Below, piece after piece: positions 43,421-53,424 of a stretch of DNA of 64,000 bases (within the stretch, counting starts at the first letter, position 1; every line of letters begins with the position of its first letter). The notes below the pieces were generated by a model. It saw nothing but the letters and a program-made list of their open reading frames with translations. It searched no databases and was not told the DNA's origin. Source of the DNA: Gemmatimonadota bacterium (GTDB lineage Bacteria; Gemmatimonadota; Gemmatimonadetes; Gemmatimonadales; GWC2-71-9); contig QHUK01000003.1 in assembly GCA_003222085.1 (NCBI GenBank), positions 62,001 through 126,000 of the forward strand, in the 5' to 3' direction. The position numbers were made by a program, and so were the translations under genes.

Positions 43421-44944
<1,524 letters not shown>

Positions 44945-44991: not shown

Positions 44992-46764
44992 GTGCCGCGG
45001 CGTCCATGTTACGGCGCCCTTGCCACTCGTTCGGAGAGCCGCAACGCCCCGGCCGGCTGTCCCGTGGACTTTAAGATCAAACCCGACTCGTGCGTCGCCT
45101 GCATGGCCTGCGTACGAGTGTGTCCCGCCGATGCGGTGGCGGTCGAAGGCGCGATCGTGCGGATCGTGGACGAGGCGTGCACGCGCTGCGGGCTGTGCCT
45201 GCCGGCGTGCCCGCACGACGCGATCGAGGCGCTGGGCGACGTGTCGCGCGCGCTCGAGCTGGCGCAGGCGGGCCGGGCGGCGCTGATCCTCTCGGTCGAG
45301 TGCGCCGTCCACTTCTATCCCGCGACTCCCAATCAGGTGGTGAACGCCTGCTACGCGGCGGGATTCCGCTCGGTGCATCGCGGCGTGCTGGGCGACGAGC
45401 TGGTGGCGCACGAATACCTGGCGCTCTGGGCCGATGGCGACTGGGGCACGATGATCCGCAGCACCTGCCCCGTCATCGTGGAGACGGTGCGGACGCAATA
45501 CCCCGAGCTGATCCCCTACCTGGCGCCGGTGGCGACGCCGATCGCCGCCGAGGCGCGCTACCTGAAGCGGTTGTACGGAGCGGGCACGCCGATCGTGTAC
45601 GCCGGCGTGTGCCTCACGGAGGGCGGGCCGGACGTGGACGCGGCGATCACGTTCGAGGACCTGGAGGACGTGTTCCGGCGGCGCGGGGTCGTGGTCGCCA
45701 AGCAGGACGAGTACTTCACCCGCGTGCCGGAGGAGCGGCGACGGCACCTGAGCATGGCGGGCGGGTTGCCGCTCGAGGTGTTGCTCGAGGAGACGCAGGC
45801 GAGCCGCCGGTTCCGGAAGGTCCGCGGGCTCGGCGGCCTCGGGGCGATCGCGCGCGCGGTGGCGGTCGATCGCCTGGACCTGGGCTTCGTGGACATCCTG
45901 CCGTGCGAGGGGTGTCTCGACCACCCGCTGCTCGGACCGCGGGACGAGCTGTTCCGGCGGCGCGAGATCGTGGGGGCGACGGAGCCGGCGCGGTCGCGCG
46001 CGCCCGTCGTGGAGGAGGCGGTGGCGCGCGGGGTGCAGATCGCCGAGGCGTTCCCGATCTCCAGGAACGGCCACCGGCCGCAGGCGGAAGACGTCGACGC
46101 CATTCTGAAGGAGATCGGCCTCGCCCCGAACGGGAAGCCGTGGGATTGCGGCGCGTGCGGGTACCCGACGTGCCGGATGTTCGCGAACGCCGCGGCGCTG
46201 GGGCGGACCACGCTGCGGTCGTGCCCCCCCTACCTCGACAAGCAGGCCCGGCTGGCGCAGCTTCAAGCGGCCGTGGACGGGCTCACCGGGCTCGCCACGT
46301 ACCGGGTGTTGCGTGACCGCCTCGCCTCGGAGATGGCCCGGAGCGACCGCACCGGGGATCCCTTCGCGGTGCTGTTCGTGGACCTGGACAACTTCAAGAA
46401 GGTGAACGACGAGTTCGGCCACGAGGCGGGGAACGAGGTGCTGCGCGGGGCGGCGCGGGAGTGCGGGGCGCACATCCGCTCGACCGACTTGGCGGCGCGC
46501 TACGGGGGCGACGAGTTCGTGCTGGTGCTGGTGCGCACCCGGGTGGAGGGGGCGCTCGGCGTGGCGGACAAGGTGCGGGCCACCGTCGAGGGCATGGGAC
46601 GGACCCTGGGTTACCCTGAGGGGCTGGTGACGGTGAGCGTCGGGGTGGCGGAGTTCGTGCCGGGCCGGGGTCCTGAGACGGAAGACGTGCTGGTGGCGGC
46701 CGACCGGGCGCTCTACCGCGCCAAGGCCGCGGGGCGAAACCAGGTGGCGACGGGAGACCGCTGA
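44992..46764 (+). CDS. Ferredoxin - [FeFe]-hydrogenase-like - ACS/CODH-type Fe-S - GGDEF fusion (start may be GTG 45064)
   Basis: SCVACMACVRVCP/ACTRCGLCLPACP 2x4Fe-4S; hydrogenase-like RSTCPVIVETV, GVCLTEGG, DILPCEGCLDH; CGACGYPTCRMFANA; RSTD-x5-GGDEF. Confidence 0.88.
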   Translation: MPRRPCYGALATRSESRNAPAGCPVDFKIKPDSCVACMACVRVCPADAVAVEGAIVRIVDEACTRCGLCLPACPHDAIEALGDVSRALELAQAGRAALILSVECAVHFYPATPNQVVNACYAAGFRSVHRGVLGDELVAHEYLALWADGDWGTMIRSTCPVIVETVRTQYPELIPYLAPVATPIAAEARYLKRLYGAGTPIVYAGVCLTEGGPDVDAAITFEDLEDVFRRRGVVVAKQDEYFTRVPEERRRHLSMAGGLPLEVLLEETQASRRFRKVRGLGGLGAIARAVAVDRLDLGFVDILPCEGCLDHPLLGPRDELFRRREIVGATEPARSRAPVVEEAVARGVQIAEAFPISRNGHRPQAEDVDAILKEIGLAPNGKPWDCGACGYPTCRMFANAAALGRTTLRSCPPYLDKQARLAQLQAAVDGLTGLATYRVLRDRLASEMARSDRTGDPFAVLFVDLDNFKKVNDEFGHEAGNEVLRGAARECGAHIRSTDLAARYGGDEFVLVLVRTRVEGALGVADKVRATVEGMGRTLGYPEGLVTVSVGVAEFVPGRGPETEDVLVAADRALYRAKAAGRNQVATGDR

Positions 46765-46766
46765 GC

Positions 46767-47501
46767 GTGACACCTTCCGATTCCGAAAGCGCGGAGGAGC
46801 GCGAGCCGCTGCCCCTGACGCCGCCTCCCCAGGCGCCCGATCCGTGGGGGGTGAAGCGCGCCGAGAACCTGATCTCGAGCCTCACGGGGGTGCTGTCGGC
46901 CCGGGTGGTGGTGACCCCGCTGGGCGAGGTGAGCGAGATCCACGTGCTCACCAGCAATGACCAGCAGGCGAAGCAGGTGGTCCGCAACATCGAGTCGGCG
47001 CTGATGGCGCAGCTCGGCCTGAAGATCGACCACCGCAAGATCAGCGTGGCGCAGACCGCCGACGTGCGGCCGATCGAGCAGATGCAGGAGGAGGCGGTGC
47101 GCACCCGCGCCAAGAAGCGGGTGGTGATCTTCCAGGGCATCGAGGTGCGGCCTTCGGAGCGGCCGCAGCGGGTGATCGTGCGGGTGAAGCTGTCCTTCGA
47201 GGGGAAGGAGGCGGAGGCGGAGGAGCAGGGGACCGACACGGTGCGGAACCGGGTGGAGGCGGCGGCGCGGGCGGCGTCGTTGTGCCTGGACGAGCTGCTG
47301 GCGGACAACTCGGTGGCGCTCGAGGGCGCTACGATCATCGACGCGTTCGACCGCAGGTTCGTGTTCGTCGCCGTGCACGGGCTGGGAGGGCGGGAGGCGC
47401 AGCTGCTCACGGGGACGTGCGAGATCAGGGAAAGCACCGAGCGGAGCGCGGTGCTGGCGGTGCTGGATGCAACCAACCGATGGACTGACGCACGGCGGTA
47501 A
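46767..47501 (+). CDS. Hypothetical protein
   Basis: GTG-started 244 aa ORF in tandem with the GGDEF fusion; no family recognised. Confidence 0.6.
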   Translation: MTPSDSESAEEREPLPLTPPPQAPDPWGVKRAENLISSLTGVLSARVVVTPLGEVSEIHVLTSNDQQAKQVVRNIESALMAQLGLKIDHRKISVAQTADVRPIEQMQEEAVRTRAKKRVVIFQGIEVRPSERPQRVIVRVKLSFEGKEAEAEEQGTDTVRNRVEAAARAASLCLDELLADNSVALEGATIIDAFDRRFVFVAVHGLGGREAQLLTGTCEIRESTERSAVLAVLDATNRWTDARR

Positions 47502-47636
47502 GACGTCGCTGACGCGGCAGTGACGTTCCTTCCAAGATATTGTAAATCAATAGTTTAGACAGCACACAAATCTGGTGTTGCACGCAGTCCACAAACCCCC
47601 TTGCGCACTTCCCATTTTCGCGTTATTTGGGGTTCT

Positions 47637-48236
47637 GTGAGTTTGCCAAAGCACAAGCGATACTGGGGTACGCAGCGCGTGGCGCGCGTCTGTCAGGTCT
47701 CCCCCGCGACGGTAGCGAACTGGATTGACCAGGGGCTGCTGAAGGGGCACAAGACACCGACGGGGCGGCGGCGTGTGGAGGCGGAGGACTTGACGGCGTT
47801 TTTGCGGTCGCACGAGATGTCGGTGCCGCCCGAGCTCGAGGGGGGGAACGGGCACGACGTGGTGGTGGTGGTGGACGACGATCCGGGCTACCTGAAGGCG
47901 CTGGTGCTGACGATCGAGCGGTCGGATTTGGATGTGGAGGTGGTGGAGGCGGCGACGGGGGTGGACGCGCTGCTCGAGATCGGGCGGGTGCAGCCGTCGC
48001 TGATCGTGCTGGATTACAGTCTGCCCGACCTGAACGCGCCGGAGGTGATCCGGCGGCTGCTCGAGCCGGGGCGGCGGCTGGACGCCGAGGTGATGGTGGT
48101 GACGGGGGGGATGCCGGATCAGGCGGCGGTGGCGCTGCGGCAGATGGGGGTGAAGGTGATTCTGAACAAGGCGGCGGGGATGCCGGCGGTGGTGGAGGCG
48201 ATGGGGGAGGCGTTGCGGCGGCGCAAGGCGGCGTAG
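47637..48236 (+). CDS. Helix-turn-helix (MerR/excisionase-type) plus receiver domain protein
   Basis: WGTQRVARVCQVSPATVANWIDQGLLKGHKTPTGRRRVEAEDLTAFL HTH; VVVVDDDPGYL..LIVLDYSLPD..VVTGG..ILNK receiver. Confidence 0.82.
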   Translation: MSLPKHKRYWGTQRVARVCQVSPATVANWIDQGLLKGHKTPTGRRRVEAEDLTAFLRSHEMSVPPELEGGNGHDVVVVVDDDPGYLKALVLTIERSDLDVEVVEAATGVDALLEIGRVQPSLIVLDYSLPDLNAPEVIRRLLEPGRRLDAEVMVVTGGMPDQAAVALRQMGVKVILNKAAGMPAVVEAMGEALRRRKAA

Positions 48237-48577
48237 GCTACACAACGGATTGAAGGGTTTTTGGGTTGCGCCGGGCCAATCGAAAGCCGGCGAGCCACAT
48301 AGAGACAATTCGAAAAAAGGGGCCCCTGGTCACCGCTACCAAAGAGCGGAGCTGAGCGAAAAGTGTACGAGCGGAGCGTTCGGGTACGCCATAGCGAGGC
48401 GTGCCACTCCTAGCGGTCGAGGATGACTCGCAGTAACTCGAAGGGGGTGACGCTCAATGTTGCATGCGCTCGCATTTCTTTTTGCGGCTGTCGCGAAGTT
48501 GGTTGTCGCGAATGGCACAGTGTCGTGGTAGTGACCTATGGGGCCCTTTCCCTACTTACCTAACAGCAAATCTGGGG

Positions 48578-49939
48578 ATGACCGAACCGCTTAGACGGAA
48601 GCTGCAGCAAGCGCTGATCTACACCTACATCAGCGCTGTATCGGCTGCCACACTGTGGGTGCTGGCATTCCGAGAGTGGGATATCCCCGCGCCGTTCCCG
48701 TCCAAGTTCTGGAATGCCATCGCTGCATTTGTAATTCTCGGGATCGTAAGCGAATCATTCTCGTTCACGATCCCCGTAGCGAACGTACGGACCTCGGTGT
48801 CCTTCGTTCCCTTCATTGCATCGGTCGCCCTTTTTCAACATCCCTGGCCTATGTTGATCGGGGGACTCACAGCGTTAGTCGCTGACACTTTCGTTCGCCA
48901 CAAGCCGCTGATTCGCGTTTGGTTTAACACGGCCCAGTTCATGCTCGCCTCGGGCCTTTGCGCTTGGGTGTATACCGCTCTAGGTGGGTCGGTCAGCTTG
49001 GAGAGGTTCAGCTTCTTCCCGCTCCCCTTCGCCTGTCTCGTCATAGTTTACTTCCTGGTCAATCACGGTAGCGTGGCGTTGGCGGTCTCCCTCAGCACCG
49101 GCGTGTCGGTCCGCGAGGCTTGGGACAGAATTGGCAAGGACGCCCTTGCAACTGACCTTTTGTCTAGTACGCTGGCCGTTTTGCTGGTCTTCCTCTATGT
49201 AAAGCTGCAGTTACTCGGATTGGCGATCCTCGTATTCCCGCTGTTTCTCGTGCGCCAATTGTACCAGATGAACTTTCGGATGCAGCTTGAATTGGAGGAG
49301 AAGCTTGAGTTGATGGTTAAAGCTATGGAAGCTAGAGATCCCTATACGTCAGGTCATTCCCTCAGGGTCTCCGAGTACGCTCTTGCCATAGCGCGCGAAT
49401 TGCGACTGTCGGCGAATGACGTGGATGAGATCAAACGCGCCGCGCTCCTACATGATGTTGGCAAGATCTATGAAGAGTTCGCACCGCTGCTACGCAAAGA
49501 GGGCAAACTGACTCCTGAAGAGCGGATGACGATGCGAACTCACGTAATCCGAAGTGCGCAGCTCGTCGAGACTGCGACCCGACTTCGTGGATCGGTCCAG
49601 GCCATGATTCGGCACCATCACGAGAATTTTGACGGATCGGGGTACCCCGACGGCTTGACAAGCAACGATATACCCATGGGCGCGCGCATCATCATGATCG
49701 CTGACACTATTGATGCAATGACAACTGATCGGCCATACCGCCGCGCCATGAGTCTATCCCGTGCGATAGAGGAGTTAGAAGCGTTCGCAGGGCGTCAGTT
49801 CGACCCGCAGCTCGTAAAACTAGTTTCCAAATCCGCGAGCATCCGTAGGCTGGTTGGAGGGGATCGCAGCGCGCCTGAGCCCTCCGCCGAGACTCCCCGA
49901 GTGCCGAGGCCGGCCTGGGCCCACCGAATCGCCCACTGA
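48578..49939 (+). CDS. Membrane-anchored HD-GYP phosphodiesterase
   Basis: N-terminal TM segments; RAALLHDVGKIYEEF..HHHENFDGSGYPDGL..ADTIDAMTTDRPYR. Confidence 0.92.
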   Translation: MTEPLRRKLQQALIYTYISAVSAATLWVLAFREWDIPAPFPSKFWNAIAAFVILGIVSESFSFTIPVANVRTSVSFVPFIASVALFQHPWPMLIGGLTALVADTFVRHKPLIRVWFNTAQFMLASGLCAWVYTALGGSVSLERFSFFPLPFACLVIVYFLVNHGSVALAVSLSTGVSVREAWDRIGKDALATDLLSSTLAVLLVFLYVKLQLLGLAILVFPLFLVRQLYQMNFRMQLELEEKLELMVKAMEARDPYTSGHSLRVSEYALAIARELRLSANDVDEIKRAALLHDVGKIYEEFAPLLRKEGKLTPEERMTMRTHVIRSAQLVETATRLRGSVQAMIRHHHENFDGSGYPDGLTSNDIPMGARIIMIADTIDAMTTDRPYRRAMSLSRAIEELEAFAGRQFDPQLVKLVSKSASIRRLVGGDRSAPEPSAETPRVPRPAWAHRIAH

Positions 49940-50049: not shown

Positions 50050-53000
50050 CTACAGCGAGACTCTTCCCCGTTCGCCCTTTAGCAGCAGGTGTTGTGGTCC
50101 TCGAACGCTCTGCGTGAGAAAGCCTTGGGCGACCAAAATTGCTCGTAGGCCCGCAAAGCCAAGCTCGTCCAGGAGGTTCAAGTCGGCTTTGGTCTCCTCT
50201 GAATAGCTGCCAAACGAGATCATATCGAGCCATGCGTTGCATCCCGCGACATCGGCGAAGTAGAGGGGATGTCGGCCTCGATACTTCGCCCGGCATTGGC
50301 GGGCGAGCACGCGGGCAGCATCGGGCCCATCAACGTGTAGAGCTCTGTGGATTCTCAGCATGTCGAACAGACCGGCATGCGGCGCCGCCCTCTCCTTTCC
50401 CCACGCTACCCGCTGTGCTGTCTCGGTTAACTCCAACGCAAGAGTGACGTCACGGTTCTGAAGAGCGAAGCTTGCGCAACCTAGAAGGAATTCCATGGTG
50501 GCGAACCAGCTGCGCTCGCGATTGCTCGCCTCTTGAGCTGCACCTAGCGATTTCAACGCCGCATCCTGCTGACCGTTCATGAAGAGAGACGCTGCTAGAT
50601 TCAGGTGAATACTCACCAATCGTGGACTCAACGCTCGTCCGGCTGTTGCGACAGCCAGCTCGCCAAACTTCACCGCTGATGCGAAGTCTCCTTGATGAAG
50701 CTTCGCGACACAAAGATTAGACGCGATGACCGCGGACCTTAGGTCGTCACCAATCTTAGTGCTGAGGGTCAACGCCTTGTGGTAAGCCTCGCAGGCAGAC
50801 TCGAACTCGCCGAGTCCCTGCTTGCACGTTCCGTATGCAGTGTATCCGAGCGATAGGCCCGCCGGGTCTTGGCGCGTATGCCATGTTCTGATGGCGGATT
50901 CCAAGCCGGTCGCTCCCGCGGCGAGTTCGAAGAAAAAGAAATCGCAGTAAGCCTTGGAATAGCAGAGCATAGGCGGCACCTCGGTCGCGAGTTGCGATAT
51001 CGCGATTTCGGCTTGCTCTCGCGCTGAAGCTACCCTACCCTCGTCCCCCGCATTGGCACCCGATCTGGCGCACTCAAACAGTGCGTTCCCGATAAGCTCG
51101 GGATCCCCAGTCTCCCGCGCCGCCACAAGTGCGGCGTCCGCAGCGTTGCAGTAGCCGAGTCCAGGCTCCTGATTCAGCAGATACGCCACAGTAGCCTGCA
51201 TTCGGGTCGCGAGTGCTCTGTCACGAGCTGACAACCCGGCCTCCTGTCCTAGAAGAATCAGGACCGGCGCCGCAGCCTCGGCCTTGGACTGACCCACGAG
51301 GGCTCTTGCGAGAAGCAAGCGGAGCCGCCTCGCATCATCCTCTCGGCAGGGCTCACGAGCGAGGACAGTAAGGATCTGCTCAGCCTCCAGGAAGCCGCCG
51401 CTACTGATGGCAGCTTCCGCACCCTCGATCGCACTCGACACCGCGCGAGCCCGATCGCCTCCCCTCAGGAGGTGCCAAGCTACTTCGAGTTTCACAGCCC
51501 GTCTGGTTGCCTCGGGTCGTTGGTCAAGCACCTCCCCTACCCTCCGATGCAACTGCTGTCGCGCCGGCCCGACAATCGCGTAATACGCCTGCGCCCGAAT
51601 CAGCTCGTTTCGGAACTCCAGCCCGCCGTGCACCTCGCGGAGCAACCCCTCATCCTTCAACCTGGATAAGGCTTCACCAGCCGCCGCAGCGGAAAGCTCC
51701 ACGGCTTCGTACAACGGCAGGTCTGCGAGCCGCCGTCCGAGCACAGCAGCGAGGTCGAGGGCCGCCCGCTTGGGAGCGTCGAGCCGGCGGATCTGACGGT
51801 CGAACACGGCCCCGATCGCCCGCGGGATGCCGATGTTCGCCGCCGGCTGCGTGTTGAGTGCCTCCAAGTCGCCGAGCAGCGAGCTCGATCCGTGCGCCAG
51901 CCATTCCTTCGTCAGGAGCTCGAGCGCCAGGGGATTCCCGTTGCCTGCCTGAAGGATGCGCGCCACGGGCACGTCCGCGATCCGGGCGTCCGCCTTGGAG
52001 ACCCGCGCCCCGACCAGCCGCTCGGCCGCCTCGGGCGGCAGCGGCTCGAGCTCCAGCGTCTGGAGCCCATCCATCGTGCCGTCGGACATCAACGCGCTCG
52101 GGCCTGCGGCCGTCCGCAGCTCGTTGGACCGCGCCGTCAGAATCAACAGGAGTCGCGTACCCCGGAGCTTGCGCGCCACGATGTGGAGGATCGCGACCGT
52201 TGCATTATCGGCCGCATGGACGTCGTCCACGACGAGCACCAGGGGGCTCTCCTCGGCCGCCGCCTCGAGGGCTTTGAGGAACGAGTCCGCCAGTCGGAGC
52301 GGAATGACCTCCGCCGACCACTCCACCGGCTTGGGGACACCGGGAAACGCGGCGAAGATCTCGGGCGACACGCGTGTCAGCTCGCTCAACGCCTCCGGAT
52401 CCGCCCCCCCGATCGCCCGTTGCACCGTGAGCTGTTTGATCAGCTCGGCGAGCACCCCGAAGGGGAGCTCGCGCTCCGCGTCGTACGCTTGGGCGCGGGC
52501 AATCGCCGCGCCTTCCATCTGACACGTCGATACGAAGGCGTTGGTGAGCGTCGTCTTGCCCACGCCAGGGTCGCCGAGCAGCACGGCGATGCGTGGCTCC
52601 CTCCGTCGCACCTCCAACCAGGCGTCGTACAGGCGGGCGAACTCGCGCTCTCGGCCGATCAGCGTCTCCGCTTCGAAGCGCCGCTCGCGCCGCTCCGAGA
52701 CCTGTCCCGCTACGGTCGGCCGCGGGGCCGCGCGGCGCCCTTCGCGCAACAACTCCGCAATCCGCACCAGCTCCGCACTCGGCTTCGCGTCGAGCTCCTC
52801 GCCCAGCCGGGCCTCGAAGCGCGCGAACACCTTGAGTGCGTTGGTGCGATCCCCCACCCACGCGCGCGCCTCGATCAACCCGCGTACCGCGTCCTCCGAG
52901 AGGGGATCGAGATCGAGCAGCACCTGCGCGTGGCGCTCCACCGTCGCGAAGTCACCGACTCGGCGCCCGCCGTCCATCTGCCTCACGAGGCAATCGCGGA

Positions 53001-53424
53001 TCCGCGGCATCAGCTTCGCCCGCCACTCGTCCTTCCACTGCTCGAACTGCACGGCTCCCGGTACCTCGAAGCCGTCGAGGAACTGACCACGGATCTGCGT
53101 CTCCGGGGCATCGATCTGGCCCACGTCCACCTGAACGGCGCCGGCGGCGAGCGCGATGGAGGCGCGCTGCACGACGAGCTGGTCGCGCCCGATCTTTTCC
53201 TTCAGTACCGTCAACGCCTGGGCAAGCGAGTGGCGGGCCCGCGGCGCCGCAACGTCGGGCCACAACAGATCCATCAGATAGTCGCGGGTGAGCTTCCGCC
53301 CCGCTTCGACGGCGAGTCGGATCAGCAGGGCGAAATGCTTGCGGGTGCGGAAACGCACCTGCTCGCCTGCCTGGCTGAGGAGCAGGGGAGCACCCAACGT
53401 GAGGAGCTGCAAGTGCGGCACCAC
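50050..53424 (-). CDS. BTAD/AAA-ATPase transcriptional regulator (AfsR/SARP-like), with TPR-like C-terminus
   Basis: N-terminal winged-HTH plus BTAD (LTRDYLMDLLWPDVAAPRARHSLAQALTVLKEKIG; RHAQVLLDLDPLSEDAVRGLIEA), AAA GDPGVGKTTLTNAFV, long helical repeat region. Confidence 0.85.
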   Translation of the reverse strand: MVPHLQLLTLGAPLLLSQAGEQVRFRTRKHFALLIRLAVEAGRKLTRDYLMDLLWPDVAAPRARHSLAQALTVLKEKIGRDQLVVQRASIALAAGAVQVDVGQIDAPETQIRGQFLDGFEVPGAVQFEQWKDEWRAKLMPRIRDCLVRQMDGGRRVGDFATVERHAQVLLDLDPLSEDAVRGLIEARAWVGDRTNALKVFARFEARLGEELDAKPSAELVRIAELLREGRRAAPRPTVAGQVSERRERRFEAETLIGREREFARLYDAWLEVRRREPRIAVLLGDPGVGKTTLTNAFVSTCQMEGAAIARAQAYDAERELPFGVLAELIKQLTVQRAIGGADPEALSELTRVSPEIFAAFPGVPKPVEWSAEVIPLRLADSFLKALEAAAEESPLVLVVDDVHAADNATVAILHIVARKLRGTRLLLILTARSNELRTAAGPSALMSDGTMDGLQTLELEPLPPEAAERLVGARVSKADARIADVPVARILQAGNGNPLALELLTKEWLAHGSSSLLGDLEALNTQPAANIGIPRAIGAVFDRQIRRLDAPKRAALDLAAVLGRRLADLPLYEAVELSAAAAGEALSRLKDEGLLREVHGGLEFRNELIRAQAYYAIVGPARQQLHRRVGEVLDQRPEATRRAVKLEVAWHLLRGGDRARAVSSAIEGAEAAISSGGFLEAEQILTVLAREPCREDDARRLRLLLARALVGQSKAEAAAPVLILLGQEAGLSARDRALATRMQATVAYLLNQEPGLGYCNAADAALVAARETGDPELIGNALFECARSGANAGDEGRVASAREQAEIAISQLATEVPPMLCYSKAYCDFFFFELAAGATGLESAIRTWHTRQDPAGLSLGYTAYGTCKQGLGEFESACEAYHKALTLSTKIGDDLRSAVIASNLCVAKLHQGDFASAVKFGELAVATAGRALSPRLVSIHLNLAASLFMNGQQDAALKSLGAAQEASNRERSWFATMEFLLGCASFALQNRDVTLALELTETAQRVAWGKERAAPHAGLFDMLRIHRALHVDGPDAARVLARQCRAKYRGRHPLYFADVAGCNAWLDMISFGSYSEETKADLNLLDELGFAGLRAILVAQGFLTQSVRGPQHLLLKGERGRVSL

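Follow-up and report, generated by a model that had tools for sequence, protein, structure and literature searches.

A [FeFe]-hydrogenase-like sensor fused to a diguanylate cyclase in Gemmatimonadota

We analyzed a 64,000-nucleotide stretch of a Gemmatimonadota genome (assembly GCA_003222085.1, contig QHUK01000003.1, positions 62,001 to 126,000 of the forward strand; hereafter, the window), in which one open reading frame (ORF), listed at 44992-46764 with its stop at 46764, joins ferredoxin-type motifs and an [FeFe]-hydrogenase-like domain to a GGDEF diguanylate cyclase domain. The features of this fusion are given below, with residue numbers counted from 44992; L1, L2, and L3 are the motifs that carry the cubane cysteines of the H-cluster site.

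45064-46764, + strand: fusion of a hydrogenase-like sensor and a diguanylate cyclase, likely true extent, 566 amino acids (conserved GTG/TTG start, Pfam, AlphaFold2 [AF2] model)
45073-45228, + strand: two ferredoxin-type [4Fe-4S] motifs, C34, C37, C40, C44 and C63, C66, C69, C73 (Pfam; cysteines kept in relatives)
45289-46131, + strand: [FeFe]-hydrogenase-like domain, about residues 100-380 (Pfam, structure matches)
45466-45468, + strand: L1 cubane cysteine, C159 (RSTCP)
45610-45612, + strand: L2 cubane cysteine, C207 (GVCLTEG, without the PCxAKK lysines of sensory hydrogenases)
45904-45915, + strand: L3 cubane cysteines, C305 and C308 (CEGC), followed by LDH, with His where sensory hydrogenases have Gly
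46144-46230, + strand: C-terminal cluster motif Cx2Cx4Cx16C (C386, C389, C394, C411; PF04060; Pfam, cysteine conservation)
46267-46743, + strand: GGDEF diguanylate cyclase domain, residues 426-584 (Pfam, residue conservation)
46477-46488, + strand: I-site RxxD, R496-S-T-D499
46504-46518, + strand: GGDEF motif, residues 505-509, five residues past the I-site

Translation probably begins at GTG 45064 (residue 25), leaving the first 24 codons untranslated, because a GTG or TTG is conserved at this position and an in-frame TGA lies just upstream in the close relatives L093 and L094. Pfam places two Fer4 matches over cut-off at residues 28-79, Fe_hyd_lg_C (PF02906) at residues 108-309 (65.8 bits, cut-off 22.1), FeS (PF04060) at residues 385-413 (37.1 bits, cut-off 23), and GGDEF (PF00990) at residues 426-584 (137.9 bits). 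An AF2 model built from 51 family members (mean predicted local distance difference test score 86.7, predicted template-modeling score 0.60) matches GGDEF structures and the [FeFe]-hydrogenases 8ru6, 8ryh, and 7p5h in the PDB (E about 1e-13 to 1e-14), and a short helix in the model runs from C411 straight into the GGDEF domain. A first-pass annotation, made from the letters of the window, had read two ferredoxin clusters, a hydrogenase-like segment, and a GGDEF domain with an intact RxxD I-site in this ORF; Pfam and the model agree, including on the hydrogenase-like fold. It had also likened CGACGYPTC to a carbon monoxide dehydrogenase/acetyl-CoA synthase (CODH/ACS) cluster. PF04060 does occur in the CODH/ACS corrinoid protein (4djd_C), but the motif is here part of the C-terminal cluster that sensory [FeFe]-hydrogenases typically carry.

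Two N-terminal [4Fe-4S] motifs, an H-domain, and a C-terminal Cx2Cx4Cx16C motif together constitute the anatomy of the putatively sensory [FeFe]-hydrogenases of group C (M2f, TmHydS) and group D (M2e, TamHydS) (PMC8163306, PMC13104023). As in those sensors, the L1 cysteine of proton transfer is replaced, and the L3 CxxC is that of group C-like relatives. The output differs: theirs are PAS, kinase, or phosphatase modules, whereas the fusion has GGDEF and lacks PAS.

To establish how widespread the fusion is, we screened 395 Gemmatimonadota genomes with the sensor part, with E below 1e-60 defining a homologue. Homologues with 41-91% identity are present in 82 of these genomes (64 in the window's family, f1, and 18 in families f7 and f9), and every fetched homologue with an intact frame ends in GGDEF. 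The cyclase fusion is the sole PF02906 protein of the window's genome, and PF02906 is single copy in nearly all fusion genomes examined. The observation is far beyond chance, given about 80 homologous fusions and a ratio of nonsynonymous to synonymous substitution rates (dN/dS) of 0.19 or less in every domain across ten pairs. The same sensor module occurs in 17 of 179 Planctomycetota, 16 of 178 Desulfobacterota, and 92 of 200 Bacillota genomes. GGDEF is absent from all sensor proteins fetched from these three phyla (for Bacillota, the top loci), where the sequence downstream of the sensor reads by eye as an NtrC-type ATPase, PAS, or GAF-like. A genome search based on GGDEF gave, among the matches listed, five Gemmatimonadota fusions and otherwise cyclases without the sensor. 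Within this limited search, the fusion is seen only in Gemmatimonadota, and we found no paper on a hydrogenase-like sensor fused to GGDEF in open-licence full texts.

The sensor branches with group C-like sensors, whose anatomy it has. In a tree built by a quick method, with long outgroup branches and with the cubane-cysteine columns left out, the whole fusion family and a set of proteins from family f2 are set apart from other phyla with support of 100. In these f2 sister proteins (L142-L152; for example, L142:6902-8368), the hydrogenase-like domain is joined to neither ferredoxin motifs nor GGDEF. Their cysteine motifs are CSCP, CPGA, and GCxCxG, and they carry a long tail of low-complexity or membrane-type sequence; they are another reuse of the hydrogenase fold. 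In the distant Gemmatimonadota family f11, group C-like sensors are linked to histidine kinase or PAS domains (L139 in genome G001, L138 in G009), and both genomes also have ordinary [FeFe]-hydrogenases.

Unlike the group C and D sensors, the fusion has lost the residues of the [2Fe] site. L2 reads PC(I/V)AKK in group C-like relatives, and its first lysine is present in 35 of 37 relatives vs none of 54 family members. The position four before the end of L3 is glycine in all 37 relatives vs histidine in all 54 family members. SVE replaces the APS loop in the fusion family; in CpI, the APS loop touches the cyanide ligands. The cysteine that starts proton transfer is threonine in the window's protein, as it is in the kinase-linked relative L139. 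The maturases are missing as well: HydG exceeds the cut-off in only one of the 395 genomes (G001, f11), HydE does so in G001 and G009 only and in none of the 76 fusion genomes tested, and HydF has no match over cut-off in the window's genome. Stray sub-threshold HydG matches in G104 (L256) and G365 (L255) score better as ThiH and were set aside; these ThiH-type radical S-adenosylmethionine proteins carry a conserved N-terminal extension and could be mistaken for hydrogenase maturases.

Because the L2 lysine, the L3 glycine, and the APS loop are lost and the maturases were not found, it is very unlikely, judging from sequence, that a [2Fe] subsite is made or held. With these motifs lost and the maturases missing, we reject hydrogenase catalysis, and the first-pass annotation's preference for sensing over catalysis is supported. 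Its description of the H-cluster motifs as reduced applies to the [2Fe]-subsite residues and the proton-transfer cysteine but not to the cubane cysteines, all four of which are present. Its suggestion of a response to H2 fares poorly. A true H2 sensor with an H-cluster would account for the four cubane cysteines of the window's protein and the rest of its clade, and the relatives are putative H2 sensors; against this stand the lost L2 lysines, APS loop, and L3 glycine, the failure to find HydE and HydG in the fusion genomes tested, and the missing cubane ligands in about half of the family, so that we give the idea almost no credence.

The loss of the cubane ligands follows a pattern of its own. 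C159, C207, C305, and C308 are all kept in 24 distinct members, including the window's protein, while 28 members retain zero or one, and no member has two or three. The cubane state changes at least twice on the tree: the f1 losers form one clade (Shimodaira-Hasegawa-like approximate likelihood ratio test 100) in which L1 reads RSTDP, and in f7 and f9 L1 reads RSTSP. All-or-none loss would be expected for ligands of one cluster, though the independent events are few, and the window's own protein probably holds a further cubane at the old H-cluster site. The hydrogenase-like domain is still selected, as its dN/dS is 0.05-0.16 in pairs both with and without the cubane cysteines.

Other parts of the protein are conserved regardless of the cubane state. 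The GGDEF motif, the metal-binding Asp, and the I-site are invariant in 53 distinct relatives, save one F509M, and the cyclase is apparently competent. Degenerate GGDEF proteins are common in general, and a protein of this kind could serve solely as a receptor for cyclic di-GMP (c-di-GMP) or as a scaffold; with the active-site residues and I-site invariant across the family, we regard an inactive cyclase as highly improbable here. The ferredoxin and C-terminal cluster cysteines are kept almost everywhere, also where the cubane cysteines are lost, with ferredoxin C66 lost in eight members. In 12 of 52 relatives, Ser or Thr replaces the first C-terminal cluster cysteine, residue 386 (46147-46149). 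The equivalent residue of TamHydS is C379, and its exchange for Ala gave a protein with a [3Fe-4S] cluster (PMC13104023). Some family-specific residues (C120, D135, R156, and H311) are invariant or nearly so, whether or not a member has the cubane cysteines.

With the sum of this evidence, we favor, with some confidence, a diguanylate cyclase with an Fe-S redox or oxygen switch, built on a group C-like sensory [FeFe]-hydrogenase scaffold that lost its H2-binding [2Fe] subsite. A redox-responsive cyclase is plausible, and what the protein signals is most likely redox or oxygen state, not hydrogen. In this model, the ferredoxin clusters at the N-terminus and the Cx2Cx4Cx16C cluster at the C-terminal end of the sensor would change with the redox poise of the cell or take O2 damage. 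The latter cluster lies where the helix entering GGDEF begins, and its state could therefore set the alignment of the two cyclase domains in a dimer; this alignment would in turn set the rate of c-di-GMP synthesis, and I-site feedback and the HD-GYP phosphodiesterase of the operon would limit the signal. That the clusters change state in the cell and thereby move the helix is inferred, as are the direction of the effect and its target.

Several points weigh against such a switch. In TamHydS, H2 did not reduce the C-terminal cluster, and activity did not seem to depend on that cluster (PMC13104023). One member, L141:6677-8413 (G209), has lost most of its ferredoxin, C-terminal, and cubane cysteines and keeps the fold and GGDEF. 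Residues that have become invariant near the former H-cluster site could point to a pocket for a ligand. These last two observations fit the main rival explanation, in which the old H-cluster pocket binds another ligand (a small molecule, anion, or gas) that controls the cyclase and the clusters are mainly structural. Purifying selection on the fold after cubane loss speaks for it too, as does the conserved operon partner, which resembles a ligand-binding LeuA regulatory domain. The conserved ferredoxin and C-terminal cluster cysteines in almost all members would then be left unexplained, and we hold this alternative to be rather unlikely. The same doubt attaches to its stronger form, that a bacterial lineage which lost first H2 chemistry and then, at least twice, the cubane has reused the [FeFe]-hydrogenase fold as a signaling scaffold able to do without its catalytic cofactor, and that the pocket of C120, D135, R156, and H311 binds a new ligand controlling c-di-GMP synthesis.

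A third explanation is a monitor of iron or Fe-S cluster supply, in which loaded and apo forms would differ in cyclase activity. Many clusters sit on this one cytoplasmic signaling protein, and Nar1, of related fold, acts in Fe-S assembly (PMC12621388); however, no Fe-S assembly genes were found in the conserved neighborhood of the cyclase, and we consider a supply monitor improbable. Like the fusion, eukaryotic Nar1/NARF combine a hydrogenase fold without hydrogenase activity with retained Fe-S sites, but they serve cytosolic Fe-S assembly and have no signaling output. The fusion works partly like Nar1 and is not classed as a Nar1/NARF member; we know of no C-terminal cluster domain of the Cx2Cx4Cx16C type in Nar1/NARF.

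Some other known systems come close to the fusion. In HydDB, the [FeFe] group C classes have links to kinases, chemotaxis proteins, or phosphatases, and a cyclase-linked class is given for [NiFe] only (PMC5037454). That putative class, [NiFe] group 2c, shares the hydrogenase-derived input and c-di-GMP output but has an unrelated fold and cofactor. Gas- and redox-sensing cyclases (globin-coupled, heme, and bacterial hemerythrin-linked) likewise place a metal-cofactor input on a GGDEF output, but with other folds and cofactors (PMC9388753, PMC7033309). A hydrogenase-like Fe-S input on a cyclase did not appear in the literature searched. The domains and the sensor module were known before; what is new is the output, together with the loss series and the setting.

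Here an [FeFe]-hydrogenase-derived sensor has taken on c-di-GMP as its output and, apparently, a different input; the H-cluster was lost stepwise, with intermediate stages persisting in living lineages. This natural series includes proteins that have or lack the cubane and proteins with a substituted first C-terminal cysteine, and it lets the role of the accessory clusters in sensory hydrogenases be tested, a question left open by the TamHydS work. In addition, before a PF02906 match is taken to mean hydrogen metabolism, both maturases and [2Fe]-site residues should be in evidence.

The genes around the fusion are as follows.

43421-44944, + strand: NtrC-type sigma-54 activator, conserved upstream neighbor in family f1 (Pfam, locus comparison)
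46767-47501, + strand: conserved operon partner with a LeuA-regulatory-domain-like predicted fold (locus comparison, fold prediction, Foldseek)
47601-48236, + strand: HTH-REC protein, near relatives only (Pfam, locus comparison)
48464-49939, + strand: MASE9/HD-GYP c-di-GMP phosphodiesterase, conserved operon neighbor (Pfam, locus comparison, motifs)

The first-pass annotation had set the HTH-REC and HD-GYP proteins next to the cyclase. Both are nearby, but the gene immediately downstream is the unnamed conserved one at 46767-47501, which adjoins the cyclase in nearly every locus. Its two-domain product has no Pfam match even at E up to 10, and its predicted fold resembles the allosteric domain of the isopropylmalate synthase LeuA (Foldseek E 7.6e-6). 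The HTH-REC gene is probably not a core part. The proposed local c-di-GMP circuit with the HD-GYP protein holds up, as the operon is conserved: the HD-GYP gene lies downstream in many loci, with its HDVGK, HHEN, and GYP motifs intact.

The circuit had also been suggested to feed the pilus. A type IV pilus cluster (pilBTC, a two-component pair, prepilins, and pilMNOPQ) lies upstream on the same strand (window 1-30937 and L254:6793-10913). Four f1 genera share the order pilBTC ... pilMN ... aroC-topA-xerC-hslU ... ntrC-cyclase across about 40-67 kb, and PilB carries an MshEN domain, through which the output might perhaps reach the pilus. This evidence is circumstantial, as the syntenic block also holds housekeeping genes and the order is not kept in the f9 genome G158; the type IV pilus is a possible target of the c-di-GMP signal. 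About a dozen GGDEF proteins are encoded in the window's genome, which gave no match to PilZ. A scan for sigma-70 promoters found nothing. Downstream of the HD-GYP gene, on the - strand at 50050-53424, a 1124-amino-acid ORF has a translation that resembles a BTAD/AAA-type transcriptional regulator.
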